From the NCBI GenBank assembly GCA_025352065.1, contig JANXUC010000156.1, forward strand, positions 1 through 33,102: a DNA stretch of 33,102 bases, written 5' to 3'. A program made the translations under genes and the position numbers. Shown here piece after piece: positions 3,446 through 25,265 of the stretch (positions are counted from its first letter, which is position 1; every line of letters starts with the position of its first letter). The notes below the pieces were generated by a model. It did not search any database. It saw nothing but the letters and a program-made list of their open reading frames with translations, and had not been told where the DNA came from. This DNA comes from Acidobacteriaceae bacterium. Its GTDB lineage: Bacteria; Acidobacteriota; Terriglobia; Terriglobales; Acidobacteriaceae.

Positions 3446-3781
3446 ATGTATTGCCTTCGCTGCAACCGCGAGCTCGATGCGGGACACAAATCCTTAGCCG
3501 TTTACATGTTTGCGCAGACTGTCGGCATCCGCCCGCGCCAGAAGTCGGGAGCCCAGCGCATCAATTTCTGTCCGCCATGCTCAGTCTCCTTAGCCATGGG
3601 ACCCGCTCCAGAGGGCGCCCTGAACATCGCTGCCTGGAATATGCTCCGCGACGTCGTAGGAGCCGACCCAGCCCTCAACCAGGCCGCCTGGGAGAGCATT
3701 CGGGGCATCGCAGGCTACCTTCCGGCAACAGGGACGGATGGCTCGCGACGGACCGCGACCAACGGCTACTTTGAATTCTAG
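3446..3781 (+). CDS. Small zinc-ribbon-like protein of unknown function
   Basis: The 111-residue protein starts MYCLRCNREL. It has two CxxC pairs, C3-LR-C6 and C42-PP-C45, separated by 35 residues, as expected for a zinc ribbon or a treble-clef-like zinc site. The remainder (PEGALNIAAWNMLRDVVG, then ALNQAAWESIRGIAGY) looks helical, and the tail is probably disordered. The frame is also open to an ATG at 3389; the ATG at 3446 is preferred because it puts the first CxxC at the extreme N-terminus, as in related short proteins, and a GGAGGA lies upstream at 3427-3432, although the spacing is long. The function is not recognised. It is followed by 289 bases without a gene. Confidence 0.6.
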   Translation: MYCLRCNRELDAGHKSLAVYMFAQTVGIRPRQKSGAQRINFCPPCSVSLAMGPAPEGALNIAAWNMLRDVVGADPALNQAAWESIRGIAGYLPATGTDGSRRTATNGYFEF

Positions 3782-4070: not shown

Positions 4071-6179
4071 ATGCATAAGCCAATCAAGTACGTGGAAAAA
4101 GCTCTAACCTTCGGCGCAAAGGGCGCATGGGTGGTTTTCGATAAGCTCAACAGCATCAAGCACGCTCCCGGCCTCATTCCTAAATGGTCGGACAAGCCAT
4201 TGCTGAAGTCCTACGAAAAGAGCAAGCCGCCGCTAGGCTGGCCGCGCACCACCGATTCGCTCTGTCCCAAGTGCGTCCCTGAAATTCGTCAGCAGATTCT
4301 CGACGGCAAATTGCCCTACGAAGTCCTGATGAATGAGAAGGTTGGCGAAATTAAGGCTCAAATTATTGAGCGCGACGGCAAGATCCTAATGGTCAAGGAC
4401 TGCGCCATTCACGGTCATTTTGAAGACGTGATGTCGATTGACCCCGAATTTTCGGATCACCTCGAGAAGGTGTTCCCGGGCCGCGATATTCGCGCCCACA
4501 ACGACGAAAAGCTGCATCACCACGGCAGCAGCACAGTTAAGTATGGTCGCGGATCGGTGTTGACCATTGATCTGACCAACCGTTGCAACATGATGTGCGA
4601 TCCCTGCTTCATGGATGCCAACCAGGTCGGATTCGTCCACGAACTGACGTGGGAAGAAATCAAGACCATGCTGGACAACGCCATTACCATCAAGCCGCGC
4701 CGCCAGATGTCGGTGCAGTTTTCGGGTGGCGAACCGACGCTGTCTCCGTACTTCCTGGACGCGGTTCGCTACGCCCGCAAGGTGGGTTACAACTCCGTGC
4801 AGGCGGCGACCAACGGCATTGAGTTTGCCAAGAGCGTTGAATTCTCCCAACAGGCCGCGGAAGCTGGTTTGCGTTACGCCTACCTGCAGTTTGACGGCAT
4901 CGGCAACGCGGCGAATGCTCATCGCGCGGTCGGCAACCTGTTTGACGTAAAGCTGAAGGCCATCGAAAACCTGCACAGCGCTGGCGTCGAAATCGTGCCG
5001 GTTGTGACGATCGTCAACGGCATCAACAACGAGCAGGTTGGACGCATTATCAAGTTCGCTTTGGACAATCCGAAGCGCATCAGCTTCCTGTCGTTCCAGC
5101 CTGTTTCGTTTACGGGCCGCGATGAAGCCGTTACCGATGACCGCCGCGAAGCGCAGCGCTACACGCTGTCGCATCTGGCGCATGATGTGAAGGCGCAGAC
5201 TGGCCTCGGCGAACCGACGCGCGACTGGTTCCCGATCTCCTTTATGAGCACGTTCTCCGATTGGGGCGATCTCATCAAGGGTTCCGGCGCGGACTGGGGT
5301 CAATTAAGCTGTGGCTGCCATCCCAATTGCGGAACCGGCATGGCCATCATGATCGACAAAGAAACCAAGGAAGCGGTTCCAGTAACGGCGTTCCTGAAAG
5401 GCGACCAACTGGCGCTCGACGTGCAGAAGGTCAACGATGCCGCGCGCGGCAAGTTCCTCTCCGTCTTCGGCATGGCGCTGGCTCTGATGAAGAATTACGA
5501 CTCCTTCCAGTCGCCCACGCACTTCAAGATGCTGGATCTGCTGAAGAAGTTCGACAAGAACTTCAACGCTACCGGCAAGAACTACGGCAAGGTCGGTCCG
5601 GATCGTACGATGGAAGATGTGATGAAGCGTCGTCAGGATCGCTGGAATTTCCTGTTCATCGCAGGCATGTGGTTCCAGGATCTGTACAACTACGACTTCC
5701 GCCGCACTGAGCAGTGCATCATTCCGTACGCCACGCAGGAAGGTGAAATCTCCTTCTGTGCCTACAACACCGGCGTGGGATGGCGCAATATCATCGAGAA
5801 GATGCACATGACCGCCACGCTCACCAAGTGGTATGAAGAGCACGGACGCCATGAAATCTTCGCTGGCGGCAAGAAGGTCAAGATGGAATCGAACGAGCAC
5901 ACGCTGATGCTGCGTGACGAGATCGTAACCACGGAAATTCAGCACGATCTCGATTCGAAGGGCATTGCCAAGACAGCCCGCGAAGAAAAGACGCGCGCTC
6001 GCGACGAGAAACAAAAGACCGACTCGCTGCACGATGCCAAAATGGCCGCGCTGTACAGAGAAGTAGTTCTAAAAGAAAAGCCGCAGGCGTCGGAAGGCGG
6101 GTTTATTCCGCTGACGGCGTTGGGTTCGGCGCCAGTGGCTCCTAAGCCGCCTGTAGCTGAGGAAGTACTGGGCGACTAA
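4071..6179 (+). CDS. Radical SAM protein resembling tetraether lipid synthase (Tes/MJ0619)
   Basis: The 702-residue protein has the radical SAM signature CNMMCDPC (C172, C176, C179), followed by SGGEPT (218-223), AATNG and LQFDG. The block before the signature (DSLCPKC, C65/C68; KDCAIHG, C111; VLTIDLTNRC) and later blocks (SFQPVSFTGR at 341-350; SCGCHPNC, C414/C416/C420; EQCIIPYATQEGEISFCAYN, C549/C563) match, from memory, the archaeal Tes/MJ0619 family. That family joins lipid tails by C-C coupling and holds several iron sites. In Acidobacteria an equivalent reaction would make iso-diabolic acid. The substrate is inferred, not shown. The Lys/Glu-rich C-terminal 90 residues look extra. GAGAGG is only two bases from the ATG, so initiation is slightly unusual. 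The gene is monocistronic and ends at a strong terminator. Confidence 0.8.
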   Translation: MHKPIKYVEKALTFGAKGAWVVFDKLNSIKHAPGLIPKWSDKPLLKSYEKSKPPLGWPRTTDSLCPKCVPEIRQQILDGKLPYEVLMNEKVGEIKAQIIERDGKILMVKDCAIHGHFEDVMSIDPEFSDHLEKVFPGRDIRAHNDEKLHHHGSSTVKYGRGSVLTIDLTNRCNMMCDPCFMDANQVGFVHELTWEEIKTMLDNAITIKPRRQMSVQFSGGEPTLSPYFLDAVRYARKVGYNSVQAATNGIEFAKSVEFSQQAAEAGLRYAYLQFDGIGNAANAHRAVGNLFDVKLKAIENLHSAGVEIVPVVTIVNGINNEQVGRIIKFALDNPKRISFLSFQPVSFTGRDEAVTDDRREAQRYTLSHLAHDVKAQTGLGEPTRDWFPISFMSTFSDWGDLIKGSGADWGQLSCGCHPNCGTGMAIMIDKETKEAVPVTAFLKGDQLALDVQKVNDAARGKFLSVFGMALALMKNYDSFQSPTHFKMLDLLKKFDKNFNATGKNYGKVGPDRTMEDVMKRRQDRWNFLFIAGMWFQDLYNYDFRRTEQCIIPYATQEGEISFCAYNTGVGWRNIIEKMHMTATLTKWYEEHGRHEIFAGGKKVKMESNEHTLMLRDEIVTTEIQHDLDSKGIAKTAREEKTRARDEKQKTDSLHDAKMAALYREVVLKEKPQASEGGFIPLTALGSAPVAPKPPVAEEVLGD

Positions 6180-6203
6180 GTCGCGCTAGATTGAAGAATA
6201 AGA

Positions 6204-6233
6204 GGCCGCTCCGGGTTCCGGAGCGGCCTTTGT
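6204..6233 (+). terminator. Intrinsic terminator after the radical SAM gene
   Basis: Arms ggccgctccgg (6204-6214) and ccggagcggcc (6218-6228) form a perfect 11-bp stem with a 3-base loop, followed by tttgttt. It lies 25 bases after the stop codon. Confidence 0.92.
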
Positions 6234-6513: not shown

Positions 6514-7635
6514 ATGATTGAATATAAACTTCTTGATCTTTTACGCGAAGGCCTAGATTCCGGCACCATAATTCCGCCCGGAGTTCAAGCTAAGATCGTT
6601 GCAATTGGACCCTCCTTCGAAGTGGCCGACCAGCAGATGCAAGTGGACGCCATCGTCGAATTCACCGTGAGAAATCTACCCAACAAACCTATTACGGCAA
6701 TCATTGAGCTGAAATCGCGCCTTACGCCAATGGTTCTTGAGGGAGCGGTTCACCAAGTCCTCCGTTATCGGAACGCGCTTCGCAGGTCTGGCGCTTTCGC
6801 GGACCTCTACCCCATGGTGGCAGCGCCGTACATCTCGGATTCTGTACAGCAGCGATGTAAAGAGCTAGGCATCGGCTACATCGACTTGAATGGAACGTTT
6901 GCGTTGATCCGTGATGACATCTACATTGACGTCGTCCGCCGCGCAATAGCATTCAAAAATCCTCAGGGAATCCAGAACATCTATTCAGGGAAATCACGCC
7001 GCATCATCCGAGTGTTGCTAACAAACCCTCACAGACCATACAGACTCGAACAACTCGCTTCTGAAACTCAACTTAGCATAGGTCAGATTTCTCAAGTGAC
7101 GAGGCGGCTCCAAGACGACGGGCTTCTGGATCGAACTTCTGCGGGATGTGTCCTAACCAGACCTCGGAAGTTGCTCAGGCAATTCGCACAAGGACTCAAG
7201 AGGGATTACGTCCACAACCGAACCGTATTTACTGCATTTTCCGAAAAATCACCTACCCAATTAGCGACACTACTTCAAGATATCTGCTCGCGCAGAGAAA
7301 TTCAGCACGCGTTCACGTTAGCCAGCGGATTAGAAGCCAGCGAGCGGAATGTTAGAGAGGAACTGACTGCCGTATACATCAACGTGCCACCCGATCACTT
7401 GAGAGAGGATATTCAGTTGGAAGCGGTGGAAAAAGGCGCGAACGTGCTCCTGATGAAACCACCAGATCCAGACAACACTGACGCCGGTGGCGTATTCTAC
7501 CGCCCGCGAAAGCTGACTAACGGGCTGATTGGCGTAAACCCCATACAGCTCTATGTCGACTTCACCGTGCAGGGCAGTAGGGGGGAAGAGCAGGCAGATT
7601 TTCTGCTTGAGCATGCATTAGGCTTCCGAGAATAA
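6514..7635 (+). CDS. AbiEi-family antitoxin-like protein (winged helix plus nuclease-like fold)
   Basis: The 373-residue protein matches the long AbiEi-type family. Its N-terminal part has D45 in VDAIVEF and E65-L-K67 in AIIELKSRL, an arrangement like a PD-(D/E)xK core, then GIGYIDLNGTFAL (119-131). A winged helix-turn-helix follows at about 162-215 (RIIRVLLTNP, QLSIGQISQVTRRLQDDGLL). A C-terminal domain of about 150 residues is unassigned. In type IV toxin-antitoxin systems AbiEi represses the operon and counteracts the AbiEii nucleotidyltransferase; some systems give abortive phage defence. Here the next gene starts directly after the stop (TAA then ATG), so the two are almost certainly translated together. 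Whether the ExK site is catalytic is unknown. The island context suggests transfer. Confidence 0.75.
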   Translation: MIEYKLLDLLREGLDSGTIIPPGVQAKIVAIGPSFEVADQQMQVDAIVEFTVRNLPNKPITAIIELKSRLTPMVLEGAVHQVLRYRNALRRSGAFADLYPMVAAPYISDSVQQRCKELGIGYIDLNGTFALIRDDIYIDVVRRAIAFKNPQGIQNIYSGKSRRIIRVLLTNPHRPYRLEQLASETQLSIGQISQVTRRLQDDGLLDRTSAGCVLTRPRKLLRQFAQGLKRDYVHNRTVFTAFSEKSPTQLATLLQDICSRREIQHAFTLASGLEASERNVREELTAVYINVPPDHLREDIQLEAVEKGANVLLMKPPDPDNTDAGGVFYRPRKLTNGLIGVNPIQLYVDFTVQGSRGEEQADFLLEHALGFRE

Positions 7636-8463
7636 ATGGCCAACGCAATCGAACTGACAAAAGACTTTCCTGCGTCGCGCGAAAGAGCTGTTCTCCTTGA
7701 ACTGCTGAACCTTATGCGCACACTCGAACAGGAAAGAATAGAGGGAGTTATCTGCGGAGGCTGGGTACCGTTCTTGAAGGAGCTTGCACGTCATTCCCAG
7801 ACAGACCATAGCATGAGCTTAGATATCGACCTTCTCCTTCGCGCCAAGGCACGTGAGCGGGAGACGATTGATCGCATCAAGAACCTGTTATCCAAATCGC
7901 TCGGCTTCGAAACAAGTAGAGCCACCCCTTTTCGCTACGAAAAGAGCATCGACGGCAATGTTGTGCAGCTTGATCTCTTGGCGGACCTCCCTCGCACGCA
8001 AGAAGATGAATCCGTTCGTAAGGTCTACGGGACGAAAACAAGTCTCGACTTGTGCCTAGTTGATGGGGGAGAGGATCTGAACGATCACGTCGAGAGAATC
8101 CAAATCAACTTCCGCGAGGGTGACCACATCCAGACCTTTGAAATTCCTGTCCCTGATGCTACGGGTTTCATCGTTCTGAAGACGACAGTGTGTCGATATC
8201 GGGAGAAACCCAAAGACCCATACGATATCTACTACTACTGCCGTTACTCAGAAGACCCTGACATTATCCGCCAGATGCTGACAACTTCCCTCCATGAACC
8301 AGCAGTCGCCCGGGCTGTTGAAGCCTTGAAGAGGATGTTCAAGCACGAGGACTCGAAGTGGGTCGAAATGGTTCTAGATCACATGAGCGTCACGGGGGAT
8401 GCGCGCGACCGCGAAGCGCAGTTTGTGGTCCGCACCGTGCGTCGAGTGAGCGACGGCTTGTGA
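7636..8463 (+). CDS. AbiEii-like nucleotidyltransferase, candidate toxin
   Basis: The 275-residue protein has nucleotidyltransferase features: ICGGWVPFLKEL (39-50, the GG motif) followed by SLDIDLLL (61-68), whose D63 and D65 would bind metal. Further on lies VVQLDLLADL, which may supply the third acidic residue, and KPKDPYDIYYYC matches the conserved K..D..D block of AbiEii-like proteins. Family members are GTP-using nucleotidyltransferases, and some modify tRNA ends. The start follows the AbiEi-like stop with no spacer. A role as toxin is inferred from pairing and order, since solitary proteins of this fold can have other roles. A dispersed repeat and then the RAYT locus follow downstream. 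Confidence 0.7.
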   Translation: MANAIELTKDFPASRERAVLLELLNLMRTLEQERIEGVICGGWVPFLKELARHSQTDHSMSLDIDLLLRAKARERETIDRIKNLLSKSLGFETSRATPFRYEKSIDGNVVQLDLLADLPRTQEDESVRKVYGTKTSLDLCLVDGGEDLNDHVERIQINFREGDHIQTFEIPVPDATGFIVLKTTVCRYREKPKDPYDIYYYCRYSEDPDIIRQMLTTSLHEPAVARAVEALKRMFKHEDSKWVEMVLDHMSVTGDARDREAQFVVRTVRRVSDGL

Positions 8464-11339: not shown

Positions 11340-13721
11340 TTGACCCTACCTACCCACAATCAGGAGCCCGATCCGCCCACCAGCCCCGTCTATTGGCGAG
11401 TGGAAGGCAGTCTACTCAACCTTAGCGTAGTGCGCCCCATAGGATTTTTAACCTGGAACGGCCAGAGCTTTCTGGAGCGCATGGTGCGCCGCGGGCTGGT
11501 TTTGCTGATGGCGTTGTTGCGTCCTTTCTTGTATGCCGTGGATCGCACCATGGCGACGCGGGTTGTCCATACCGTGCTGCGAGGCGTGAGTCGAGACCGG
11601 CTGGACTTGCTGGGGCAGGAATACTTTCAATACAAGCTGAAGCCACAACTCAAGGATGAAGGAACGCGGCAGCTGCGGCGACTGGTGGAGTCCGGCGCGG
11701 AAGTCGTGCTGGTGAGCCAAGGGTTGGAGCAGGTGATGCGGCCGCTGGCGGAACATTTTGGCGTGAAGTGGCTGATAGCGAATCGGCTGGAATTTCGCGA
11801 TGGCATTGCCACCGGTCGTTTGCTGGATGCAGTGATTCGTCCGCGAGGATTGTTCGCGCGAATTACCGGGAGCGACCCGAATGGACGGAAGGGTGTTGTG
11901 CAGCTGGCACGAGATCTTAAGTTGCCGGCAGAGGAGCTTGTAACTTCTGTTCGATCTGCGAAACGTGGCGAAGGAGTGCCAGCGCGTCCGTTAGTTTTAT
12001 TTGAAAATCGGTATGGCGCGCAGCAATCTGCGAAGCCGCTATCCGTGCGTCATGCTATGACGGGTAAGCATGTAATGCTGGTGGGATTTACCGGGTTCAT
12101 CGGAAAAGTTTGGCTGGCGAACACGTTGATGGATTTGCCGGAGATTGGGAAGATTTACCTCCTGATTCGGCGGCAGAAATCGAATCCGGCAATTCAGCGT
12201 TTTGAGCGTGTGGTCGATGAATCTCCGGTTTTTGACAAGCTGGAAGAGCGTTATGGTGCCGAGTTTGGACGTTTCATCGCTTCCAAGGTCGAGGTTGTTG
12301 AGGGCGATGTCACGCAGCCGGGGCTTGGTTTTCATCCAGAGGTTGGAGAGCGGCTCAAGCACATGCTGGATGTCGTCATCAACAGTTCGGGGTTGACGGA
12401 TTTTAATCCGGACTTGCGTGACGCTCTGGCGGTAAATGTGGATGCCACGGTCCACATGCTCGATTTTATTCGCAGCAGCGACCACGCTGGGCTGGTACAT
12501 CTTTCCACCTGTTACGTGGCGGGCCAGCGCGATGGCCGCATTAGCGAAACCTTGCGCAGCGACTACACGCCGGTGCGCGCGCCAGGTTTCGATGCGGAAA
12601 GAGAGCTGCAGGCTCTGCGTCAGCTTGTCGTGGATGCCGAGAAGCTTTCGGAGAGTTCGAAAGTTACGGACGAATTGAAGCGCCAAGCGCTGGACAAAGA
12701 ACATGCGGCGCGTGGCTTGCAAGGTGCTGCGCTGGAGAATCAGATTCGCAAGAACCGTATCCGCTGGCTCAAGGATTATGTGACTGAGGTTGGCATGGCG
12801 CGGGCGCGCGAACTCGGGTGGCCCAACACCTACACGTTTACCAAGAGCTTGGCGGAGTCGCTGATTGCAAAGCGTGGCGCGGGACTTCCAGTTGCAATTG
12901 TGCGCCCAGCCATTGTAGAGACTTCCACCTCGAAGCCGTTTCCAGAGTGGAACGAAGGCATTAATACTTCAGCGTCGCTGTCGTATTTGCTGGGCACGTA
13001 TTTCCGGCAACTGCCTACCAATGAACGCAAGCGGCTGGATATTATTCCGGTGGATGCGGTGTGCCAGGGAATGACTTTGATTGCCGCAGCTGTGATTGAG
13101 CGCCGTCACGACGCCATGTATCAACTGGCGACTTCCGTGACGAATCCGTGCGATATGCGCCGGTCGATTGAGTTGACCGGGTTGGCGCATCGGAAGCACT
13201 ATCGCGCGCAGGAAGGCTTAGAATACTGGCTGCGCTTGCGCTTCGATACGATTCCCGTCTCGAAGCAGCGTTACCGAAGACTTTCCGCTCCGGCGCAACG
13301 CCATATGGTGCAGGCTATCCAGAGGGTGATGGCGCCGCTGCCGTTGAAGAAGACTCCTCTGGCGCGTGCCGAGCGCAATCTGGAACGTCTGGAAAAACTG
13401 ATCGTGCTGTTCGAGCCTTTCATTTTGCACAACGAGCACGACTTCGTTGCCCAGAATGTGGAGAAGCTCACGCGGCTACTTCCTGAAGAAGAACGAGCAA
13501 CCTTCGGATACAATACGAGCAGCCTAGATTGGTGGGAATATTGGATCGATATTCACATTCCCGCGTTGCGGCGATGGACCTATCCGCTGATTGAGGGCCG
13601 CCCTATCGAAGTGCGCCCGAGCCGGAATTTTCGCATGAACGATTGTGCGTCGTCGGCGGGCATCCAGAATGAGCCGCAAGTTCTTCCAACCGGAACGGGG
13701 CCAACGTGGCAATATTCCTAA
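11340..13721 (+). CDS. Fatty-acyl reductase with N-terminal degenerate HAD domain
   Basis: The 793-residue protein is a fusion. Residues about 17-205 resemble a HAD-IB phosphatase: VSQGLEQVM (motif II, S126) and [15 protein letters not shown] are recognisable. The nucleophile motif DxDGT, however, reads RVEGS (20-24), and the DxxxD motif IV is not found. Residues from about 243 form an NAD(P)-binding reductase of the male-sterility/thioester-reductase type, with GFTGFIGK (249-256), HLSTCYVAG (387-395) and YTFTK (Y498, K502). A charged helical insert lies at 420-475. Such enzymes reduce acyl-CoA or acyl-ACP to aldehyde or alcohol. The start is an in-frame TTG; no ATG or GTG was found between it and the conserved region. 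The next gene overlaps by 16 bases. Confidence 0.82.
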
Positions 13722-14839
13722 CCGGGTCGACCGGATATATCGGGGGATATATCGCGGCGGGGCTGCTGGAGAGCCATCGCGAGCCGCTTAATTTACTGGT
13801 GCGAGCACGCGACACGCACGAGGCGGAGACACGTTTGTGGCAGTCACTGCAATTGCATTTCGAGTTTCCGAAATTTGCCGAGCTGTTGCGAACTCGCGTG
13901 AATATCTTCCGTGGCGATCTTACGAATTCGCGTTTTGGACTGGATGAAGGCGACTATCGGAAATTGGTCGAGACTACAGACTCAATCGTCCACTGCGCCG
14001 CGTCCTTGAATCGGAAATCTGAGAAGAGCTGCTTGAATACGAACCTCCGCGGCACTTTGGAGGTTGTACAGTTGGCTCGCCGCGCGCAGGATCATCACGG
14101 GCTTCGTCGCATCAGCCATGTAAGCACGGTCGCAGTGGCAGGGAAGCGATCGAACGAAGTTGTGGAAGAAGACAAGTCAGTTGATTGGGATCGCTCGGAC
14201 TACGATCCCTATGCGCGTACGAAGAAGTTTTGCGAACACATGATTCGCGAATTACTGCCGGAAGTGCCGCATACGATTTTCCGTCCCAGCATTGTGTTGG
14301 GGGATAGCCGTTGGGCTGCCACCACGCAGTTCGACATGGTGCGCTCGTTTGTATTCCTGGCGGGGCTGCCGATATTGCCTTTCCGTCCGACGGATAGGAT
14401 CGACATTGTAAACGTGGACTTTGTAGCCGACGCTATTGTGACGCTGCATCAGAAGCCGAATCCAAAGCACGATATCTATCATCTGTCTTCTGGAGCCATG
14501 GCCCAAACATTTCGCGAGCTTACCGACGCGCTTGCGGAAGCGCGCGGCAAGAGGAAGCCCGTATATCTGCCGAAAATGGCGAGTTCGTTTTCTGGGTTAG
14601 TGGATCGCTTGGCGTCGCGCAAAGGGACCATTGGGCGCAATGCCGCGCTGTTGAAAGTATTTATGCCGTACCTCTTGTGGAATACGGTGTTTGACAACAG
14701 TCGTGTTGTAGAAGAAATGGGAAGCAAGCCCGTCCCATTTTCGCGATACAGTCTGCCACTATTGAAGTTCAGTCTTGATATGAAGTTCCAGTACCAGTAC
14801 AAACCATGGCCAGCTTCTGCGGGAGGTTCCGCCGCATGA
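13706..14839 (+). CDS. Thioester-reductase-like SDR (NAD-dependent epimerase family)
   Basis: The 377-residue protein starts at a GTG inside the end of the preceding gene. It has a Rossmann motif GSTGYIGG (7-14), [16 protein letters not shown] and the catalytic DPYARTKK (YxxxK). It also has [12 protein letters not shown] and [10 protein letters not shown], as in extended SDRs of the thioester-reductase/male-sterility class. It probably reduces a thioester, an aldehyde or a keto group on an acyl intermediate, acting with the larger reductase encoded just upstream. The C-terminal 100 residues ([10 protein letters not shown] onward) resemble those of carrier-protein-linked reductases. There is no transmembrane segment. 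The tight overlap on both sides argues for a shared complex or pathway. Exact substrate and reaction direction are unknown. Confidence 0.82.
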
Positions 14840-16245
14840 TGGATTTTTTGCTGGAAGCGTGGGTGAGCTCGACGATTGAGATGACCCGCCTGCGATGGAT
14901 GATGGGCGGAGGTCAGGCTTGGCGTCCGGGCGAGAAGCTGAAGCTGTTGTTTGCTGGCTACAACGGCACCCGGAACACAGGTTCTGACGTGCGAGTGGAA
15001 GAAATGTTGCGTCAGGTACGGCATGTTCTTGGCGCCGATCGCTGCGAACTCAGCGTGATGACGCAGAAGTTTGATTTTACGCGTGGATACTTCAAAGACA
15101 CACGGCAGGTGCATTTGCCAGATATTTTCCCGCCGTTTCTGCAAAGGGAAGTCCCGCGACATCACGGTGTGGTCGCCTGCGAAGGTTCAATGTTCAAGAG
15201 CAAGTTCGCCAACGCGCTCACCACGATGATGATTGGCTCGCTGGGCATGGCTTCCGCGCAGAATAAGCTCTCCGTTGGCTATGGGGCGGAAGCAGGCCAC
15301 ATGGATCCGCTCGTCTCGAAGATGTGTGGACGTTTCTGCCGCGAGTCGCTGGTGATCACGCGCAACGAAGAATCGCGAACGATTTTGCGCGAGCTTGGGG
15401 TGCCGACGGAGTTAGGTTCCGATACGGCATGGACTTTCGAGCCGCTTCCTCCCGAATACGGCAAGGTTGCGTTGCGGAAAGCTGGCTGGGATGGCACGAC
15501 GCCTGTGCTCGTGGTCTGCCCGATTAATCCTTTCTGGTGGCCCGTGAAGGCTTCGCTGGGGAAGTATGTTGCGCGAGGTCTGACAGGCGCCTACAAGCAG
15601 AGTCATTATCGCTCGGTTTATTTTCATACGTCCGGTCCGAAGGTAAATGCCGCGTACACCCACTATTTGACTTCGATTGCTCGCGCGGTGGATGCGTTTC
15701 GTAAGAACAACAAAGTATTTGTCGTGATAGTTGCAACGGAGCGTCTGGACGCGGACGTCTGTCACCGCATTTCGGACCAACTTGGTGGTGTTGCCGTTCT
15801 GACTTCCGACGATTACGACATGTATCAACTGGTTAGCATTTTGCGAGCGTGCCACATGATGGTTTCGTCGCGCTTTCACGGGATTGTGACCTGCATGCCT
15901 GGATTGGTGCCGTCAGCTGGCATCACGATGGATGAGCGCATCCGGAATTTGATGAACGAGCGCGGACACCAGGACCTGCTGCTTACAGTAGACGATCCTG
16001 ATCTGGAACCGAAGCTGCTGGTTGTTCTGGAAAAGTTGAAGCGCGAAAGCGAAGCAGTTGCCACGGGCATCGGTCGCACGGTTGTAAAGAACTTGAAGAC
16101 GATGGCACGCATGGGCGTTTACTTTGAGGAAGAAGTCCAGCGGCGTTATCCGGAATTCCCCATTCGCACGGGTACTTATGGCTGGGAAGAATACTTGCCG
16201 CCGCTGAGTCCAACTCTACAAAAGTTGGTTGAGGCCTACGGATGA
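14836..16245 (+). CDS. Polysaccharide pyruvyl transferase family protein
   Basis: The ATG at 14836 overlaps the preceding stop (ATGA) and has GGGAGG at 14821-14826, so it is preferred over the in-frame ATG at 14806; the product is then 469 residues. [19 protein letters not shown] near the N-terminus and [13 protein letters not shown] near residue 355 are the usual N- and C-terminal landmarks of the CsaB/pyruvyl transferase (PF04230-type) fold, a GT-B-like structure. Known members transfer pyruvate from phosphoenolpyruvate onto sugars of cell-surface polymers. Finding one inside an acyl-activation operon is unusual, and the acceptor could be a glycolipid. No signal peptide or clear transmembrane helix is present, so it is probably cytoplasmic or peripheral. 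Confidence 0.82.
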
Positions 16246-17951
16246 GTGCGCCCTCCTTCGCTTCTACTGGCAATTGCGTGCAGGATATTTTCGACCAGCT
16301 TGCGCGACAGAGTGAAACACCGGTGCTGGAGGAATGCCGCGAGTCTGAGTGGCTCCGCGTAACCGGCGGGGAAGTGCTGGCTTTGGTGGCGGCGGCGCGA
16401 GCTTACCTTGTGAATGCGGGAGTGCGTCCCGGCGACCGCTGCGGACTTCTCGCTGAAAATGGAATTCGTTGGGTTGCCGCGAATCTCGCGATCATAGCTG
16501 AGGGCCTGATCTGTGTTCCACTTTACGCCCGGCAGGCGCCTACGGAACTTGTTGCGATGATGCGGGATTGCGAACCGGCACTGTTGTTCTGTGGGACCCG
16601 GGATTTGAAGGATGCAATTCGGAAAGCCTGTCCGGATGGCCCCAGAACGATTCTATTTGAGGAAATGTTTGTAACGCACTCGCTGGAACCGAAGCCCAAT
16701 GGTCCGTTGGTGACGGTGGAAGGCTCTATGCCGATTACGATTATTTATACCTCTGGAACATCGGGTGTAGCCAAAGGCGTGGTGCTGACCGTTGGGAACG
16801 TTACGCATATGCTGGGCTGCACCTGCTCTCGTCTTGACTTACTGATGAAGGGCAGCGAACGCCAAGACCGCGTGTTGCATTATTTGCCGTTCTGTTTTGC
16901 CGGTTCATGGATTCTCCTGCTGACAAGCCTTCTACGGGGTAGTCTCTTGACCATGAACCTGGATTTGAACAGTTTGGCGGCGGACCTTCGAACTACAGCG
17001 CCGGATTATGTGCTCAATGTTCCTGCGTTGCTGGAGCGTATGCGGCGCGGTGTTGATGAACAGATGCAGCGCAAGGGTGGATTGCTGTCGACGACCTATT
17101 CGCGAGCGAAAGCGGTATTTCTTGGGCGAACCATGCAGACGTCCGCGAACAGGAAAGCCTCTTCCGCGTGGGAAGGACTATGGCTCGGGTTGGCGAACAT
17201 GTTGGTGTTTCCGGTGATCAGGAAGAAGATGCTGGGAGCAAATTTGAGAGCGCTCATTTGTGGGTCGGCGCCGCTTGCGGTCGAGACGCAGCTGTATTTT
17301 GCAATGCTCGGCGTGCCAGTTTTGCAGGTATACGGACTGACGGAAACAACAGCGATTTGCACGATGGACGATCCGCGATCGGTGGAGCCAGGCCTTGCTG
17401 GGCCTGCCATCCCGGGTATCGAGATGAAGTTGGGAGAGCATCAGGAAATTCTTGTTCGTGGTCCGAATGTGTTCGCGCAATATTGGAACAGGCCCGAGGA
17501 GACATCAAAAGTTTTCGAGGACGGATGGTTTCACACCGGCGACCAAGGTGAGCTGACGGCTGCGCGGAACTGGAAGATCGTTGGGCGACTGAAGAATCTG
17601 GTCATTCTCGGTTCGGGCCACAATATCGCGCCTGAGCCCATAGAGGATGAACTCCTGCGACAGCTGGCGGGCGCGCAGCAAGTTGTGCTGGCCGGAAACG
17701 GGCGTGGTTATCTCTCCGCCATCGTTACGGGCAAGGTGCAGCGCGAGCAGGCTCAAGCTGCGCTCGATGCGGTCAATCCTAGCCTTCCGCATTACAAACA
17801 AGTGCGGGCGTTTCATATTTCGGCGGAGCCTTTTTCTGTGAAGAATGGTTTGTTGACCGCGAACGGCAAGTTGAAGCGCGACGCGATAGCCCTTTGCTTT
17901 AAGAACGAGATTGAAGATATGTACAGTTCGCGCGTCGGAGTGGCGAGTTAG
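16242..17951 (+). CDS. Long-chain acyl-CoA synthetase/acyl-AMP ligase (first)
   Basis: The 569-residue adenylating enzyme has the P-loop-like IIYTSGTSGVAKGVV near residue 170, LPFCFAGSW, VYGLTETTAICTMDD, DGWFHTGDQGEL and GRLKNLVILGSGHNIAPEPIE. It ends with LTANGKLKRD, which holds the C-terminal Lys needed for adenylation. It probably activates a fatty acid to acyl-AMP and then passes it to CoA or to the acyl carrier protein encoded downstream. The start ATG overlaps the preceding stop by four bases, and the crotonase gene begins one base after its stop. A second ligase of identical length lies further downstream, so the two may differ in substrate or acceptor. Chain length cannot be told. Confidence 0.88.
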   Translation: MSAPSFASTGNCVQDIFDQLARQSETPVLEECRESEWLRVTGGEVLALVAAARAYLVNAGVRPGDRCGLLAENGIRWVAANLAIIAEGLICVPLYARQAPTELVAMMRDCEPALLFCGTRDLKDAIRKACPDGPRTILFEEMFVTHSLEPKPNGPLVTVEGSMPITIIYTSGTSGVAKGVVLTVGNVTHMLGCTCSRLDLLMKGSERQDRVLHYLPFCFAGSWILLLTSLLRGSLLTMNLDLNSLAADLRTTAPDYVLNVPALLERMRRGVDEQMQRKGGLLSTTYSRAKAVFLGRTMQTSANRKASSAWEGLWLGLANMLVFPVIRKKMLGANLRALICGSAPLAVETQLYFAMLGVPVLQVYGLTETTAICTMDDPRSVEPGLAGPAIPGIEMKLGEHQEILVRGPNVFAQYWNRPEETSKVFEDGWFHTGDQGELTAARNWKIVGRLKNLVILGSGHNIAPEPIEDELLRQLAGAQQVVLAGNGRGYLSAIVTGKVQREQAQAALDAVNPSLPHYKQVRAFHISAEPFSVKNGLLTANGKLKRDAIALCFKNEIEDMYSSRVGVAS

Positions 17952-17952
17952 C

Positions 17953-18756
17953 ATGCGCGAATTCAAGGGGCAGACACTTTCATGGGGATGGAAAGACGCC
18001 GTCATCGAATTGATACTACACCGGGCGCCTGGCAACGAAATTGGGTCGGTGACCTTAGAGGAGTTAGAGAAATTTGCCGCGGTTCTCGACGATCTAAGTA
18101 GAGAGAGTCACGCTTTGATCATGCACAGCAGCGTACCTGCCGGTTTTTGCGCAGGTGCGGACTTGCGGGAGTTGTTTGAACGCTCCCAGCAGATGAAGAG
18201 GGAAGAAGCTATCCGCAGCGTGCGAGATTTTCTCGAGCGAATTCACGCTGTATTTAATAAGATCGATGCCTCCCCGCTAACCACAATCGCCGCCGTGCAT
18301 GGCGTTACATTCGGCGGAGGATTTGAGCTGGCGCTAATCTGCGATCTTATTGTCGCAGACAAAATGACGCGCTTCTGTTTCCCGGAGCTCCGTCTTGGAT
18401 TGATTCCTGGATTCGGCGGAATCCCCCGCCTGAAGCGGGATTTGGGCAATGCCGTTGTGCGCGATCTGCTGCTTACCGGACGCAGCTTTAATGCGACCAA
18501 GGCGCAGCAGATTGGCTTGGTGAGCCAACTTGTGGCGGAAGGCGAAGCTTTACGGGCTGCTCGAGCAACAGCGGTCCAGATGGGTAAGTTTGATCGCCGA
18601 ACTTCTGCAGCGGCGAAGCAATTTGTTAAGCCTATTCCCCATGAAGAGCTATGTCGCGAGATCGATATTTTTTGTGATCTGTTTGCACAGCCGGCTGTTG
18701 AAGCCGGACTTAGAAAATTTGTGGAGAGCACGGATGCTCTGCCTTATCTACCTTGA
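17953..18756 (+). CDS. Enoyl-CoA hydratase/isomerase (crotonase) family protein
   Basis: The ATG at 17953 follows the upstream ligase stop directly and gives 267 residues; the in-frame ATG at 17911 would lie inside the ligase gene. Crotonase motifs are SSVPAGFCAGADL (oxyanion loop) and GVTFGGGFELALICD followed by FPELRLGLIPGFGG. The two glutamates used by hydratases are both present, in GGGFEL and in FPEL, so hydration of a 2-enoyl thioester is plausible. Placement between two acyl-AMP ligases and before an ACP suggests an acyl-ACP or acyl-CoA substrate. The fold also covers isomerases and the diffusible-signal synthase RpfF; the typical hydratase motif order argues mildly against the latter. 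Confidence 0.85.
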   Translation: MREFKGQTLSWGWKDAVIELILHRAPGNEIGSVTLEELEKFAAVLDDLSRESHALIMHSSVPAGFCAGADLRELFERSQQMKREEAIRSVRDFLERIHAVFNKIDASPLTTIAAVHGVTFGGGFELALICDLIVADKMTRFCFPELRLGLIPGFGGIPRLKRDLGNAVVRDLLLTGRSFNATKAQQIGLVSQLVAEGEALRAARATAVQMGKFDRRTSAAAKQFVKPIPHEELCREIDIFCDLFAQPAVEAGLRKFVESTDALPYLP

Positions 18757-18777: not shown

Positions 18778-19020
18778 ATGCCAACACTTGATCAAACGCT
18801 TGATGAAGTTCTAACTCTCGCTGCCGCGCAGTTTAAAGTTCCGCGTGAGAACTTGAGTCCAGACGATGATTTCTTTCAGAAGCTTGCCATCGATAGCTTG
18901 CAGGCGCTGGACCTGCTAACCCGGTTGGAGAATCACTTCCACGTCGAGCTGCCGGATTATGAAATGCAGGGAGTTTCGGATTTCCGCACGCTGGCAAGCC
19001 GAATTCAGGCACGCCTGTAA
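18778..19020 (+). CDS. Acyl carrier protein
   Basis: The 80-residue acidic protein has the phosphopantetheine attachment site AIDSLQAL, with Ser40 as the modified residue. It fits the four-helix ACP size, with ENLSPDDDFFQKL before the site and LENHFHVELPDYEM after it. It is a dedicated ACP rather than the fatty-acid synthesis AcpP: the sequence around the serine is IDSLQ rather than ADSLD, and it lies among ligases and reductases, not with fab genes. It probably receives an activated acyl chain from one of the two ligases and presents it to the crotonase or the reductases. The gap to the crotonase gene is 21 bases, and 113 bases separate it from the next ligase. Confidence 0.92.
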   Translation: MPTLDQTLDEVLTLAAAQFKVPRENLSPDDDFFQKLAIDSLQALDLLTRLENHFHVELPDYEMQGVSDFRTLASRIQARL

Positions 19021-19133: not shown

Positions 19134-20843
19134 ATGCTGGACCTTACAAAATATCAGAGTCTCGGCGAAGCGTTGCGGGATGCACTCGACCGCTGGCCCA
19201 ACGAAGTATGCCTGATCGAGTCCGACCGGGATCGTGAATGCATACGGCTGACTTACTCCGACTTCAAGGAGACTGCGCTGCCTTTGGCGCGTGCTCTGCA
19301 GGATGCGGGTTTTCGCCCCGGGGATCGCGCCGCTATCATCATGACCAATCAGTCAAAGTGGCTCATATCGGCCTATGCGGTCATGTTTTGCGGTGGCGTT
19401 CTGGTTCCACTTGACTACAAACTTACAGCGGCGGAGCACTTGCAGTTGCTGGCGCACTCACAAGCCAAAGTGTTGTTCACGGAGTTTCATCTTTGGCGTG
19501 CAATTTCTCAGGCAGTGGGCTTTGATGGCCTTGCAACTGAAACGGTTTTGGTCACCGAAGCACCAGGTAGCGCAGGCCTGGTAAAGGCGTTTCGGTGGGA
19601 AGATTTTCGCCGGAAAGGTGCGCCCGATCTTGCTCCGCGAAAGCGGGACGACTGGGCCACCATTGTTTATTCGTCCGGAACCGGTGGTCGCCCGAAAGGT
19701 TGTGTCCTTACGAATGAGAACTATTTGGAACAGTGTGCGGCCCTGACTTCGCTGTTTCCGTTTTGGCCCGGAGTGCGCTATTTGAGCATTCTTCCGACGA
19801 ACCACGCCGTCGATTTCATGGTCGGTTTCCTTGGACCTTTCGTTTGCGGGGCGACGGTTGTGCATCTCCGTACATTACGCCCGGAGTTTGTACGCGACGC
19901 GTTCGTCCGTTACCGGATCACCTATATGAGTTTAGTCCCCATGGTTCTCAAGAATCTGGAACGGGGACTGCGCTCGAAGTTTGATGAAATGTCCAGCAAG
20001 AAGCGCTGGGTGCTGGATCGCCTGATTGCGTTGAACCGATTGCTGACTCGAGGTCGGCCGCGCGCAGCAATAAGCCGGTTACTCCTCCCGCAAATCCATC
20101 GCGCGTTTGGCGGGGGGCTCCGCGCGATGTTTGTGGGCGGCGCATTTATGGAAGCGTCCACCTTGCAGTTTTTCTACGATCTTGGTGTTCCGGTTTCCAA
20201 CGGCTACGGCCTTACGGAAGCCGGGACGGTCCTTACCCTCAATGATTGCAAGCCTTTTCGCTCGGATACGGTAGGGAAACCTCTCCCGGGAGTGGAGCTT
20301 CGCATTTTGAACCCAGACAGTGAAAATATTGGCGAAGTCGCCGCGCGCAGCAAGACTATTATGTCGCACTACTTGTCGGACCCGGAGCTGACTGCCAAGA
20401 CCATCGTAGATGGCTGGTTGTTGACGGGCGACCTCGGACGCTTCGATGACACTGGGCACCTTCAACTTTTCGGCCGCAAGAAGAACATGATTGTGACTCC
20501 CGGTGGAAAGAATATCTATCCCGAAGATATTGAGACTGCCTTTGATGGCTTGCCCGTGAAGGAGTACTGCGTCTTCGCTGCGAACTATATCTGGAAGAAG
20601 AACGACCTTGGGCGAGAAATGCTGGTGATCGTCATCCTGCTTGAACCGGGCCAGGAATTTACGAATGCTCTAAGGGAAGACCTGTCTGCGCGCAACCGAC
20701 GCTTGCCGGATTTCAAACGAATTGGCGGATATTGTGTTGTTGCAAAAGACTTTCCGCGGACTGCCTCCATGAAGATAAAGCGGAACCAGTTGGCGGAGGA
20801 ACTTGGTAAAGTCCTGCAACGCTCGGACGTGATCGAACTGTGA
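19134..20843 (+). CDS. Acyl-AMP ligase/acyl-CoA synthetase (second)
   Basis: The 569-residue enzyme has the adenylation motifs [17 protein letters not shown] near residue 180, [32 protein letters not shown] and [21 protein letters not shown]. The C-terminal Lys region reads [10 protein letters not shown]. It resembles long-chain acyl-CoA synthetases and acyl-ACP synthetases. Because it directly follows the ACP gene, it is the better candidate to charge that ACP. The 113-bp gap before it is the largest inside the run and could hold an internal promoter, although none was clear. Its stop overlaps the GTG start of the lipid kinase by four bases. It is clearly a paralogue, not a recent duplicate, of the ligase at 16242, since motif residues differ throughout. 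Confidence 0.87.
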
Positions 20844-21742
20844 GCGAGAATTTTCTAGCTGTGGTCAACCCGGCTGCCGGAGGTGGCCGTTGCGGCAAGC
20901 TGGTAGGAGACGCGCTCGGACGTCTGCGCGCCCAGGGTTTGACGATCGATGTTCAAGAGACGGGTGCGGAAGGTCATGCCGTGCGAATTGCTCGTGAGGC
21001 CTACGCCCAGGGATATCGCAAATTCATTGCTGTAGGTGGTGATGGTACCGCATGCGAGATCGTGAATGGTCTCTTTCCAGAAGCGGAAGGGAAGGAGCCT
21101 CCAACACTAGGATTTCTCCCGCTCGGCACGGGCAATTCTTTTCTTCGGGACTTCACAACGCAAGGAATGTCGTGCTCGATGGAAGCTTTGATTGCAGGGA
21201 AGTTGCGGCCTTGCGACGTATTCCGACTCCAGCATAAAGAGGGGGACTACTATTTTATTAACCTGCTCAGCATGGGCTTTGCTGCGGACGTAGCCATGCT
21301 TCGGCACCGACGTTTCCGGCGCTTTGGGGAACTGGGATATTTGCTCTCCTTGTTTGTCACCCTGGCGGAGCTCAAGCGACGTGCGTTTCCCCTGACGGCG
21401 GATAGCGCCGTAGATGTGGATGCACGCCGTAGTCTTTTTCTGACCTTCAACAACAGCAAGTTCACTGGTGGAAAAATGATGATTGCGCCGGATGCGCAAA
21501 CCGACGATGGTCTTATTGAATACGTTCGCTGGGGTCCGATCGGACGGCTTGGCTTGATCCGCAATCTACCGCGACTTTACACCGGAACGCATACGCAGCA
21601 TCCGCTAGCCGAACGAAGTGGCGTCCGACAGGTGGAGTTTCAATTGGAAGCACCCGTCGACGTGATGATTGACGGCGAGGTGGCAACCTTGCACTGCGAG
21701 CGCCTAAATGTTTTGCACCACGCACTCCGCGTCGTGATATAA
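20840..21742 (+). CDS. Diacylglycerol kinase-family lipid kinase
   Basis: The 300-residue protein starts at a GTG overlapping the preceding stop (GTGA). It shows [10 protein letters not shown] (8-17), the ATP-binding [13 protein letters not shown] (66-78) and [12 protein letters not shown] (94-105), diagnostic of the DAG kinase/sphingosine kinase (YegS/DgkB) superfamily. The C-terminal beta domain includes GFAADVAML and VDVMIDGEV. These soluble enzymes phosphorylate a lipid alcohol such as diacylglycerol. In this operon the substrate could be diacylglycerol or a long-chain alcohol-derived lipid made by the reductases; that is inference. The usual GGDGTxNE has Cys at the Asn position (TACE), a variation worth noting. 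The next gene starts 14 bases later. Confidence 0.87.
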
Positions 21743-22632: not shown

Positions 22633-23481
22633 ATGACTGAATCGAACCTAACATTGCCTGGCGCTCGGCAAAATACGGCAGAAGCATGTAGTCAGGACGA
22701 GGGAGAGCTTCGCTTTCACGATCTGCCCAGCCGCGTTTTCGGCAACACGCGCAAACTTCGCGTTTGGCTACCGCCTGGATACGAGGCTCGCGAGAATGAA
22801 GGCCGCCGCTATCCCGTCTTTTATATGAACGACGGGCAAAATTTGTTTGACCCTGCAACTGCCTTTGCAGGCGTCGATTGGCGCGTGAATCAAACGCTTG
22901 CGCGTCTGTCCCGAGAGTTGGTCGTGCCGCCGCTGATTGCCGTAGGCATTGACAATGCAACGGTCGAGCGCATCAAGGAATTTCTCCCCTATCGCGCGCT
23001 GTATCCGTCGGTGCCAAAGCCTTTAGGAAAATATTATCCGGATTTCTTAATCCGAGAGGTGATGCCGCTCATTGAGCGCAGCTATCGAGTGCTGCAGGGC
23101 GCGAAGAATACCGGCCTCGGTGGGTCATCGCTGGGAGCGCTCATTTCTTTACATACCGTAATTGCGCGCCCTGGTATTTTCGGGAAGCTTTTGCTGGAAA
23201 GCCCGTCTCTTTTTGTTTCGAATAAGCAACTGCTCAAAGATAGTCGCACCTGTGAGACTTGGCCGCAGCGCATTTTTCTTGCGACTGGCACCCGAGAGAC
23301 CGGGCAGCCGGATCGAGATCGACGCATAGTGGACGACGTGCGGTCTCTAGCGCACATCCTGCATTTAGCCGGTCTTCGCGAAAAGCGTCTTCGCGTGGTG
23401 ATCCAGGAAGGTGTCGGTCACAACGAGGGTGCGTGGGCGGATCGCTTTTCCGAAGCGGCTTCGTTCTTGTTCGGCACCTAA
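22633..23481 (+). CDS. Esterase of the EsteraseD/Fes type (alpha/beta hydrolase)
   Basis: The ATG at 22633 gives 282 residues; a TTG two codons earlier is also in frame. The protein shows [42 protein letters not shown] and the nucleophile elbow [12 protein letters not shown]. It ends with GVGHNEGAW, which supplies the catalytic histidine. This is the PF00756-type family, which includes enterochelin esterases, mycolyltransferases and S-formylglutathione hydrolases. No signal peptide is evident, so action in the cytoplasm is likely. It follows the VKOR gene by 25 bases and may be the last gene of the run. It could release or transfer an acyl product, but this is unproven. Its stop overlaps the stop of the convergent membrane protein gene by four bases. 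Confidence 0.85.
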
Positions 23482-25265
23482 TCCGAACCCGAAGGCCTGC
23501 TGTTTTTGGTCGTACTTTCTGGTGACATGTCTTCCGGTGTGTAGGGCTGAAGGTGGGGTGGTACGTGGTCCGGCTGCAAACTCCAAACCTTTCGATCCTG
23601 AAAATATTCGATCAGCTTCCGATTTTCCGAATTGCCCATATCGCGCGTCCAAACGACCTGTGAGGCATCGATGTTGGCGCGGTTATAAACCCATTCCTGG
23701 TTCACGTCGTGGCCCGGTAAATAGCGCACAAAAATAAGATGCTTTTGTCCGGAGTGTTCAAGGTCTTCTAGCATCGCAGCCCGTGCAAGATTGCCGCGGG
23801 GCCAGGTGGGTTCAAGTTGAATGTGGCCGGCAATCGCGACTAATCGAAGAACAATCATGGCGATTGACACCAAAGGAATGATCCGCACCAGCGTCACGCC
23901 GAAGCGGTCCTTCTTCCAACGCCACAACCGCAAATGGCGTGCTCCCTGGACGAGGAACAAATACAGCAAGCATGTCGCGGGAGCGACGTAGTGCGCAAAG
24001 GTCCACGTCTCGACCAAAACGCCAAAAAGAAGTATACCTACGATCACCAGAGGGAACCGCATTCTGCGATCTCGCCAAATCCACGGCCATGCCAGACAGG
24101 GCAGAGTCAGTACGACAGCCAAATAGAAACTCCAAAGTTCTGCCAGCTTATGAAAAATTCCGCTGGCAAATCCAGAGGCTGTTCGCTCGGCAAGAAAAGT
24201 TCGCAGTTCCCAATATTGATAGAAGTCGCGCATTACGGCATGATCGTATCCGGTAATGTGCCGGGCGGGAAGAAACAGAAAGTAGGGTGCTTCCGCGTAG
24301 GTTTCCCGGTTCGTTTGATATGCCATGCGAACCGGGCTGCCCGTGACCTTGTAGTTGAAGTAGGCCATCAGACTGCCAAACAACACCAGGAACATCGCGA
24401 CGGGAAGGGCACCGCATAGCCATCGGGTTTGAAGTGGCACTTCAGATATTCCGGAGGCCGGTTGCGGAAAAGGTGTCTTGCCGATAATCCAACATAGGAA
24501 CACAACCGCTACGGGGATGCTCAGGAGAAATCCTTCGTAGGGCCGGCTGTTCGCCATCAGCAATAGCCCGATCGCGAGGAGCACGGCATCGCGAATTCGT
24601 GCCGTGCGCTGCAAACGAGGCCAGGCGCCCAGCACAAGCGCTCCACCCAACGCGGCCGCTGAGCTTGCAAAGTAGGAATTCATCCAGTAGCTCAGGATGC
24701 CGAGGCGTAGTACTGCCAGCATTCCACCGTAAAGCGCCCAGCGCGGCGGAACCCAAGCCTGCAGCATCCAGCAGAACGCGCCGCACATCGCTCCGGTGAC
24801 CATCCAGACTCCCCACCAGGGATGGCCTAGCAACAACTTGCCAACCGCAAGAATTAGCGCTTGTGCCGGTGGATACATCGACATATATGTCGGTTGATGA
24901 ATGATGTGGAAGCTTTCAAAGAATTTCCAAAACGGATGGGTCGGATTGGTGAGCCTGCCAGACAGAAACGTATCGGTCGCCAGCAGGTAACTAAAATCGT
25001 CGTGCCAATAAGGCTCTGGGATACCCAGCAGCGGAACCAGGGATGCGCGCAGGATCAAGGGAAGGATCGTAACTACTGCGATTGCGGTGCGCCGGTTGTT
25101 GGCCAAACGAGTGAGCGCAGATTCTACCCGCGCAAGCCCAGCAAAGGGCAGTCGCCTAGGACGCCTCCAGGGAAAAAATACGGCAATTGCGATCGTCGCA
25201 ACGAGAAGAGCAGCCTCCAGGATAGCCAGGAAATTCGGCATCAGATTCGTAGAAGCAATTTGCAT
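23478..25265 (-). CDS. Polytopic membrane protein, GT-C (family 39-like) glycosyltransferase candidate
   Basis: The 595-residue protein has about 10-12 hydrophobic helices. After the first two comes a periplasmic-type loop with [16 protein letters not shown] (85-100), where D89 and D90 occupy the position of the acidic metal/donor-binding motif of GT-C transferases such as PMT and ArnT. The following [18 protein letters not shown] block is, from memory, typical of a family widespread in Acidobacteria. GT-C enzymes use polyprenyl-phosphate sugars on the outer face of the membrane. The C-terminal 100 residues form a soluble domain ([20 protein letters not shown]). The acceptor is unknown. It is on the minus strand, downstream of the phosphofructokinase by 119 bases and convergent with the esterase. 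The function call is moderate. Confidence 0.7.

Follow-up and report, generated by a model that had tools for sequence, protein, structure and literature searches.

Branched tetraethers are widely used as palaeothermometers, and the Acidobacteriota are their best known makers. GDGT-MAS, or Tes, is the archaeal tetraether synthase, which connects two lipid tails at their ends by Csp3-Csp3 coupling. For its representative MJ0619, the closest solved enzyme to the one considered here, the metal ligands are given in PMC9433317, including the rubredoxin pattern C9/C12/C33/H36; that paper describes the roles of the remaining metal cofactors as not clear. Bacterial homologues of Tes have been proposed to make membrane-spanning lipids, by Zeng 2022 for Acidobacteria and brGDGTs (PMC8941075) and in a Solibacter paper (PMC10087280), and acidobacterial Tes homologues as possible makers of such lipids are already in print. 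A 2025 paper regards this activity of the bacterial homologues as unconfirmed (PMC11868695). In the Myxococcus elb ether-lipid operon, ElbD, with FAR, ACS, ACP and acyltransferase, is accompanied by the HAD protein ElbB and the epimerases ElbA/E (PMC9131029).

Here, we analyzed a stretch of 33,102 nucleotides (the window) from the 4.25-Mb genome of an Acidobacteriaceae bacterium, whose acidobacterial origin had been recognized in the first-pass annotation. On the forward (+) strand, to which all coordinates below refer, an open reading frame at 4071 to 6179 starts with ATG and runs uninterrupted to its stop codon. The encoded protein of 702 amino acids contains the Pfam domain Radical_SAM and a zinc-ribbon-like N-terminal domain. 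It belongs to a group of Tes/GDGT-MAS-like radical SAM proteins, called family B below, that are candidate membrane-spanning lipid synthases. Relatives in several families share 76 to 88% identity with the window protein across most of its length, and the closest named records (about 83 to 87% identity) come from soil and peat Terriglobia, gp1 Acidobacteriaceae and Ca. Sulfotelmatobacter, which places the organism in subdivision 1 or close by. In a plasmid collection, weak matches were present in 33 of 72,556 records, none of which covered 80% of the query. Directly 3' of the gene, at 6201 to 6231, lies a terminator-like hairpin of 14 pairs with a T-rich tail, in line with the earlier claim that the gene has its own terminator. 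No sigma-70-like promoter was found between positions 3700 and 6600.

The first-pass annotation had described the protein as Tes/MJ0619-like. Its best solved relative is indeed GDGT-MAS/MJ0619 (7tol; phmmer E 3e-61), and the best curated model is NCBIfam Tes (NF045702), with an E-value of 2.8e-93 and a score of 313.2 bits, below the membership cut-off of 450 bits. Full-length family B rows score about 284 to 349 bits on this model, and the rows over the cut-off in the phylum and class searches belonged to other genes. A structure model was built from 54 sequences (54 of 65 representatives plus the window) and reached a mean pLDDT of 89.7. It replaced a first, shallower model from 20 sequences, which modeled the metal sites poorly (mean pLDDT 73.9; Z 29.3 against GDGT-MAS). 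The predicted structure has the GDGT-MAS fold, with 475 of 498 residues aligned to 7tom at 2.6 A (Z 43.5) and a Z score of 39.0 against 7tol, which is the same protein; the best match to a different protein was MoaA, at Z 20.5. Since the score lies below the curated cut-off and one auxiliary cluster is missing, the protein is not Tes proper, and plain Tes membership was rejected (313 versus 450 bits, [Fe4S4]N ligands absent). Thus, the proposed resemblance held in sequence and predicted fold but did not extend to the curated family or to its full set of clusters.

The ligands were mapped by a MAFFT sequence alignment of 32 family B rows, 29 acidobacterial Tes proteins and 3 TrsS-like proteins; a sequence-based map was used because the structure aligner gives no residue pairs. 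For the motif counts, identical proteins were dropped (138 to 125 in family B and 38 to 29 in Tes), as were candidates below 300 bits. All motifs named in the first-pass annotation were recovered at the same residues (C65/C68/C111, CNMMCDPC, SFQPVSFTGR, C414/C416/C420, C549/C563 and EQCIIPYAT...FCAYN). In the alignment, MJ0619 residues C33, H36, C98, C102, C105, C338, C455, C470, Met439, Gln268, Ser271 and Arg275 are matched by the same residue in 32 of 32 family B rows. The rubredoxin-type iron site (4263 to 4412) comprises C65, C68, C111 and H114 in a CX2C...CX2H arrangement. C111 and H114 align with MJ C33 and H36, and C65 and C68 have cysteine counterparts in 28 of the 29 acidobacterial Tes proteins, the remaining one showing a gap; MJ C9 and C12 lie outside the MJ fragment aligned. 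An LCPxC-type motif occurs in 125/125 family B relatives, as does the radical SAM [Fe4S4] motif CX3CX2C, which in the window protein reads CNMMCDPC (C172, C176 and C179; 4584 to 4607).

The [Fe4S4]C cluster of GDGT-MAS is likewise represented, by C420, C549, C563, M533 and Y553. In the CGCHPNC block (5310 to 5330), C420 corresponds to MJ0619 C338, and C414 and C416 are extra cysteines. M533 (5667 to 5669) corresponds to Met439, reported as a labile ligand of the GDGT-MAS [Fe4S4]C cluster (PMC9433317). C549 and C563 (5715 to 5759) correspond to C455 and C470, and between them Y553 takes the position of Tyr459, where it is invariant in 20 aligned rows. Judged by conservation, MJ C338, C455 and C470 would be the ligating cysteines of this cluster.

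A different picture was obtained for the segment in which Tes carries the [Fe4S4]N ligands. In the window protein this segment (residues 145 to 157; 4503 to 4541) reads H149-x-H151-G and contains no cysteine. Tes C73, C77, C80 and the following His, presumably MJ H83, align with a gap, H151, S154 and K157, respectively, the last being mostly K or T across family B. The [Fe4S4]N motif CX3CX2CX2H was found in 0/125 distinct family B members, versus 29/29 acidobacterial canonical Tes and 3/3 TrsS-like proteins. Of the 125 family B members, 123 lack any cysteine in the stretch separating the rubredoxin site from the radical SAM motif, and two have one there. An HxHG-type motif is present in all 125 and a CGCHPNC-type block in 124. 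In the predicted structure, residues 141 to 160, around H149 and H151, have a mean pLDDT of 61 to 63. Thus, a comparison of the auxiliary ligands with MJ0619/Tes matched the rubredoxin and C-terminal cluster residues but not those of [Fe4S4]N, and in this respect a result that the first-pass annotation had named as counting against its reading was partly obtained. The matched ligands predict two [Fe4S4] clusters and a single rubredoxin iron, not three such clusters. As the roles of the remaining GDGT-MAS cofactors are not clear, the loss of [Fe4S4]N by itself does not exclude coupling.

In the tree, a quick search calculated without bootstrap, the 32 family B rows included group together with an SH-aLRT support of 100, and the stem leading to this clade measures 1.83 changes per column. 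The clade is nested inside the acidobacterial Tes rows, with a support of 80 for the nearest group, and the 3 TrsS-like proteins form a separate clade (support 100). Because long branches meet at the family B stem, the exact origin of the family among bacterial Tes is unsure; on the aligned sequences, family B is a separate Tes-derived clade.

Family B is widespread and canonical Tes patchy. In a sample of 297 genomes from across the Acidobacteriota, 143 carried family B (E-value band 1e-190): all 33 members of the class to which the window belongs, and 110 of the remaining 264, these 110 spanning 39 further families. Within the class, 365 of 399 genomes matched the window protein at 1e-150. 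Canonical Tes over the cut-off was found in 27 of 199 phylum genomes and 36 of 399 class genomes. Comparison of the two class lists placed family B in 29 of the 36 Tes genomes. In the phylum, both genes occurred together in 8 of the 27 Tes genomes, and family B occurred in 85 of the 172 others; a Fisher test on these counts gave p 0.06 without correction for kinship and was not taken as support. Of 237 genomes in the family of G482, 206 had a Tes-model match of any kind at 1e-60, 41 of them over the cut-off. None of 20 named-record genomes, taken from 80 named loci and all picked for carrying family B, had Tes over the cut-off, and three genomes of one or two contigs (G010, G027 and G053) gave no match to the window protein at 1e-10. 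Scoring was limited to the top candidates of each genome (in the large searches two, three, six or seven), and a second copy may thus have escaped detection; 11 to 15 genomes were left out of each of the class (399) and G482-family (237) lists.

The acyl-modifying operon that had been placed about 5 kb from the gene was confirmed. It begins at position 11340, in the same orientation as the family B gene and 5.2 kb downstream of it, and an AbiEii-like gene pair lies in the gap. Its first gene encodes a fusion of a fatty acyl reductase (NAD_binding_4) with a HAD phosphatase domain (11340 to 13721). This is followed by an NAD-dependent epimerase/reductase family protein of the ElbA/ElbE kind (13706 to 14839), a polysaccharide-pyruvyl-transferase-like protein (14806 to 16245), an AMP-binding acyl ligase (16242 to 17951), an enoyl-CoA hydratase/isomerase (17911 to 18756), an acyl carrier protein (PP-binding; 18778 to 19020), a FadD-like long-chain acyl ligase (19134 to 20843) and a diacylglycerol/lipid kinase (20840 to 21742). 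No acyltransferase was found among the downstream genes scanned, and the ElbD combination of reductase, acyl ligase, ACP and acyltransferase is not present here as one chain. Two other acidobacterial genomes (L192 and L193) do have this one-chain form. The split form was found in 9 of 297 phylum genomes at an identity of at least 56%; 31 further genomes matched at 28 to 37%, and in 29 of these the matching frame was as large as ElbD (1,442 to 1,525 amino acids).

Among 107 family B loci (106 distinct sequences, not a random draw, with at least 6.5 kb of downstream sequence visible in 78), an elb-like operon lies downstream of family B in 10, on the same strand in all 10 and 243 to 5,164 bp away. 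The other 97 loci show no such operon, and neighbors vary in most loci. For the 9 operon genomes of the even phylum sample, the operon was linked to family B in 3 and located on another contig in 5, and one genome (G062) had Tes without family B. Canonical Tes follows family B on the same strand 0.4 to 2.7 kb away in G265, G679 and G603 and lies 3.7 to 11 kb away in G121, G073 and G511, giving at least 6 genomes with both genes on one strand within about 11 kb; many genomes that have both genes carry them on separate contigs. PlsA/Ger-type ether formation was considered separately and rejected, as PF09989, the sole Ger part searched, had no match in the genome of the window and matched in 4 of 14 control genomes, including Thermotoga maritima.

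The lipids reported for carriers of family B were then compared with their genes. Pyrinomonas methylaliphatogenes K22 contains more than 40% membrane-spanning iso-diabolic and ether lipids (PMC4644332). The genome assigned to this strain (G086) carries two family B genes (69% and 52% identity), with nothing else matching the window protein at 1e-10 and no Tes match over the cut-off. The fatty acids of Chloracidobacterium validum include iso-diabolic acid (PMC12816986). Its assigned genome (G096) has one family B gene and two weak matches in the TrsS-like range, again with no Tes match over the cut-off. Two further genomes, G576 and G511, are taken by us to be those of Acidobacterium capsulatum and Koribacter, respectively. 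In G576 the single match to the window protein at 1e-10 is family B and no Tes exceeds the cut-off, and G511 has both genes. Iso-diabolic acid has been reported for A. capsulatum, with no brGDGT at low oxygen, and iso-diabolic tetraesters have been reported for Koribacter (PMC13274423). Subdivision 1 strains are reported to contain 12 to 49% iso-diabolic acid (PMC11354219, PMC12935467, PMC6252331). Edaphobacter aggregans, a maker of iso-diabolic acid and brGDGTs, was assigned by Zeng 2022 one Tes homologue, 32% identical (PMC8941075), and this homologue would fit family B. For Solibacter usitatus, two Tes homologues and brGDGTs are reported but no detectable iso-diabolic acid (PMC10087280), and the species may be a counter-example to the coupling reading. 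The family holding a Bryobacterales record (G383) mostly carries family B, so the gene may occur there without iso-diabolic acid. Thus, the co-occurrence of gene and lipid expected from the first-pass annotation was seen in two reported iso-diabolic acid producers that lack Tes over the cut-off, but Solibacter may break it.

The distribution and gene neighborhood favor a role in membrane-spanning lipids, and family B is a good candidate for, and probably is, the coupling enzyme of iso-diabolic-type membrane-spanning lipids. We infer the substrate and reaction, and a common pathway with the elb-like operon and canonical Tes. By analogy with GDGT-MAS (PMC9433317), the enzyme would join the terminal (omega) carbons of two iso-branched chains, mainly iso-C15, on two membrane phospholipids to give iso-diabolic-acid-type membrane-spanning lipids; iso-diabolic acid is 13,16-dimethyl octacosanedioic acid. 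SAM would be cleaved by the site-differentiated cluster at C172/C176/C179, and the resulting 5'-deoxyadenosyl radical would abstract hydrogen from the end of one chain. The radical left on the carbon would be stored in a C-S bond to the C-terminal cluster (C420, C549, C563 and the labile M533) until a second SAM activates the other chain end, whose attack would form the C-C bond. A more specific proposal, to which we give an even chance, is that family B is the iso-diabolic acid synthase of Acidobacteriota. It would have split early from bacterial Tes, been inherited vertically and lost one iron-sulfur cluster, with the invariant HxHG in place of this cluster, perhaps forming a different metal site with C414/C416. 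Its substrates would be iso-C15 chains in both ester and ether linkage, and part of subdivision 1 would encode it beside a split elb operon in a compact brGDGT-type locus.

Against this reading, the coupling in Acidobacteriota might be performed by Mss of the Thermotoga/Bacillota type, while family B modifies membrane lipids by a different radical reaction, for example Gms-like cross-linking between chains, the formation of rings or a shift in methyl position. Among bacterial enzymes, it is Mss for which functional support in fatty acid coupling has been reported (PMC11868695, PMC13274423, citing Sahonero-Canavesi 2022), an Mss gene in family B genomes could do the job, and the long family B stem fits a changed function. 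Yet family B keeps the C-terminal cluster set together with Met439 and Tyr459. In addition, it matches the Tes model at 3e-93 while T. maritima gives no match at 1e-25, which places family B nearer to Tes than anything in that genome. In acidobacterial MAGs from the Black Sea, Mss homologues were reported in 11 of 97 and Tes homologues in 17 of 97 (PMC11868695); family B is more widespread in our genomes than Mss in those MAGs, although samples and cut-offs differ. We regard this explanation as unlikely, though not negligible.

A shared pathway is a further alternative, in which family B and canonical Tes act together (e.g., on a second chain pair), family B giving half-coupled or ester-type lipids and Tes completing brGDGTs. 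The same-strand neighbors in six genomes, the presence of family B in 29 of the 36 class Tes genomes and the occurrence of both genes in the presumed Koribacter genome, along with its reported tetraesters, agree with such a division of labor. However, family B usually occurs alone: in the phylum sample, Tes over the cut-off is absent from 85 of 93 genomes with family B, and 19 of the 27 Tes genomes lack family B. This alternative appears improbable. A TrsS-like or other maturation radical SAM protein without a lipid role is more improbable still. The TrsS model NF045646 does score the window protein at 207.2 bits, and a TrsS-like paralogue is encoded elsewhere in the genome. Membership requires 490 bits, however, far more than this score, and the Tes model scores the protein higher, at 313. 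The TrsS-like proteins also form their own clade, lack Met439 in 3/3 cases and lack the C338 and C470 equivalents in 2/3. On score, tree and ligands, TrsS identity was rejected, and coupling by family B remains our preferred reading.

In the part of the literature covered, nothing was found on the loss of the N-terminal cluster, on family B as distinct from Tes, or on linkage to a split elb operon. A candidate apart from Tes that is near-universal in this class would explain why Acidobacteria include many makers of iso-diabolic acid and few makers of brGDGTs. Such a candidate would also serve environmental surveys better as a marker gene and reveal which metal sites of the coupling chemistry are dispensable.

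Compared with known systems, family B is closest to GDGT-MAS (7TOL/7TOM), with which it shares the predicted fold across nearly the whole enzyme, the residues of the radical SAM, rubredoxin and C-terminal cluster sites, and Met439, Tyr459, Gln268, Ser271 and Arg275. It differs in the absence of the [Fe4S4]N ligands and in having the extra cysteines C414/C416, an N-terminal helix and a C-terminal extension; after FCxYN, a median of 137 residues follow in the 125 family B relatives versus 30 in the 29 acidobacterial Tes proteins. Acidobacterial canonical Tes belongs to the same superfamily, is 32 to 37% identical to family B (19 compared) and sometimes adjoins it, whereas its [Fe4S4]N motif is kept and its distribution is patchy. 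Mss is similar in its proposed tail-to-tail coupling of fatty acyl chains and in its Tes-like predicted structure (PMC13274423); the T. maritima genome, which gave no Tes-model match at 1e-25, suggests a difference as an indirect control. Finally, the downstream operon and Myxococcus elb both combine a fatty acyl reductase, HAD, NAD epimerase, acyl ligase and ACP in one cluster, but in the window the domains are on separate genes, with a reductase-HAD fusion and an additional pyruvyl-transferase-like protein, hydratase and lipid kinase.

Genes of family B, the Tes-derived clade of the window radical SAM protein, were found adjoining canonical Tes genes on one strand in three genomes (G265:C7:11931-16000, G679:C84:55682-59532, and G603:C60:12481-18842). 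The two were also on one strand, within about 11 kb, in G511, G121, and G073, and such neighbors could form a two-enzyme locus. The sites in G265 and G679 correspond to loci L247 and L248. In the G511 locus (L249), from a genome of the size of Koribacter, a serpin gene (14658-15884) is flanked by the family B and Tes genes.

Across family B, the HxHG motif (H149 and H151 in the window protein) is conserved, as are the extra cysteines C414 and C416. The four residues may constitute a new metal site replacing [Fe4S4]N. The window's own genome also encodes, outside the window, a TrsS-like radical SAM paralogue (L035, G000:C74:20559-21890), which scored 315 bits against the TrsS model (cut-off, 490 bits). 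It carries an N-terminal cluster motif and lacks equivalents of MJ0619 C338 and C470.

Within the window, the radical SAM gene is separated from the elb-like operon by a gene pair (6514-8463), encoding an AbiEii-like nucleotidyltransferase and a weakly classified protein, which is perhaps an insertion of toxin-antitoxin type. A 595-aa ORF (23478-25265, minus strand) had no match in Pfam, NCBIfam, or PADLOC at an E value of 0.001.

One-chain proteins of the ElbD type, combining reductase, ligase, ACP, and acyltransferase, are encoded in L192 (9669-14207) and L193 (6288-10715), with a HAD gene nearby; both loci come from acidobacterial family f21, which includes Pyrinomonas.
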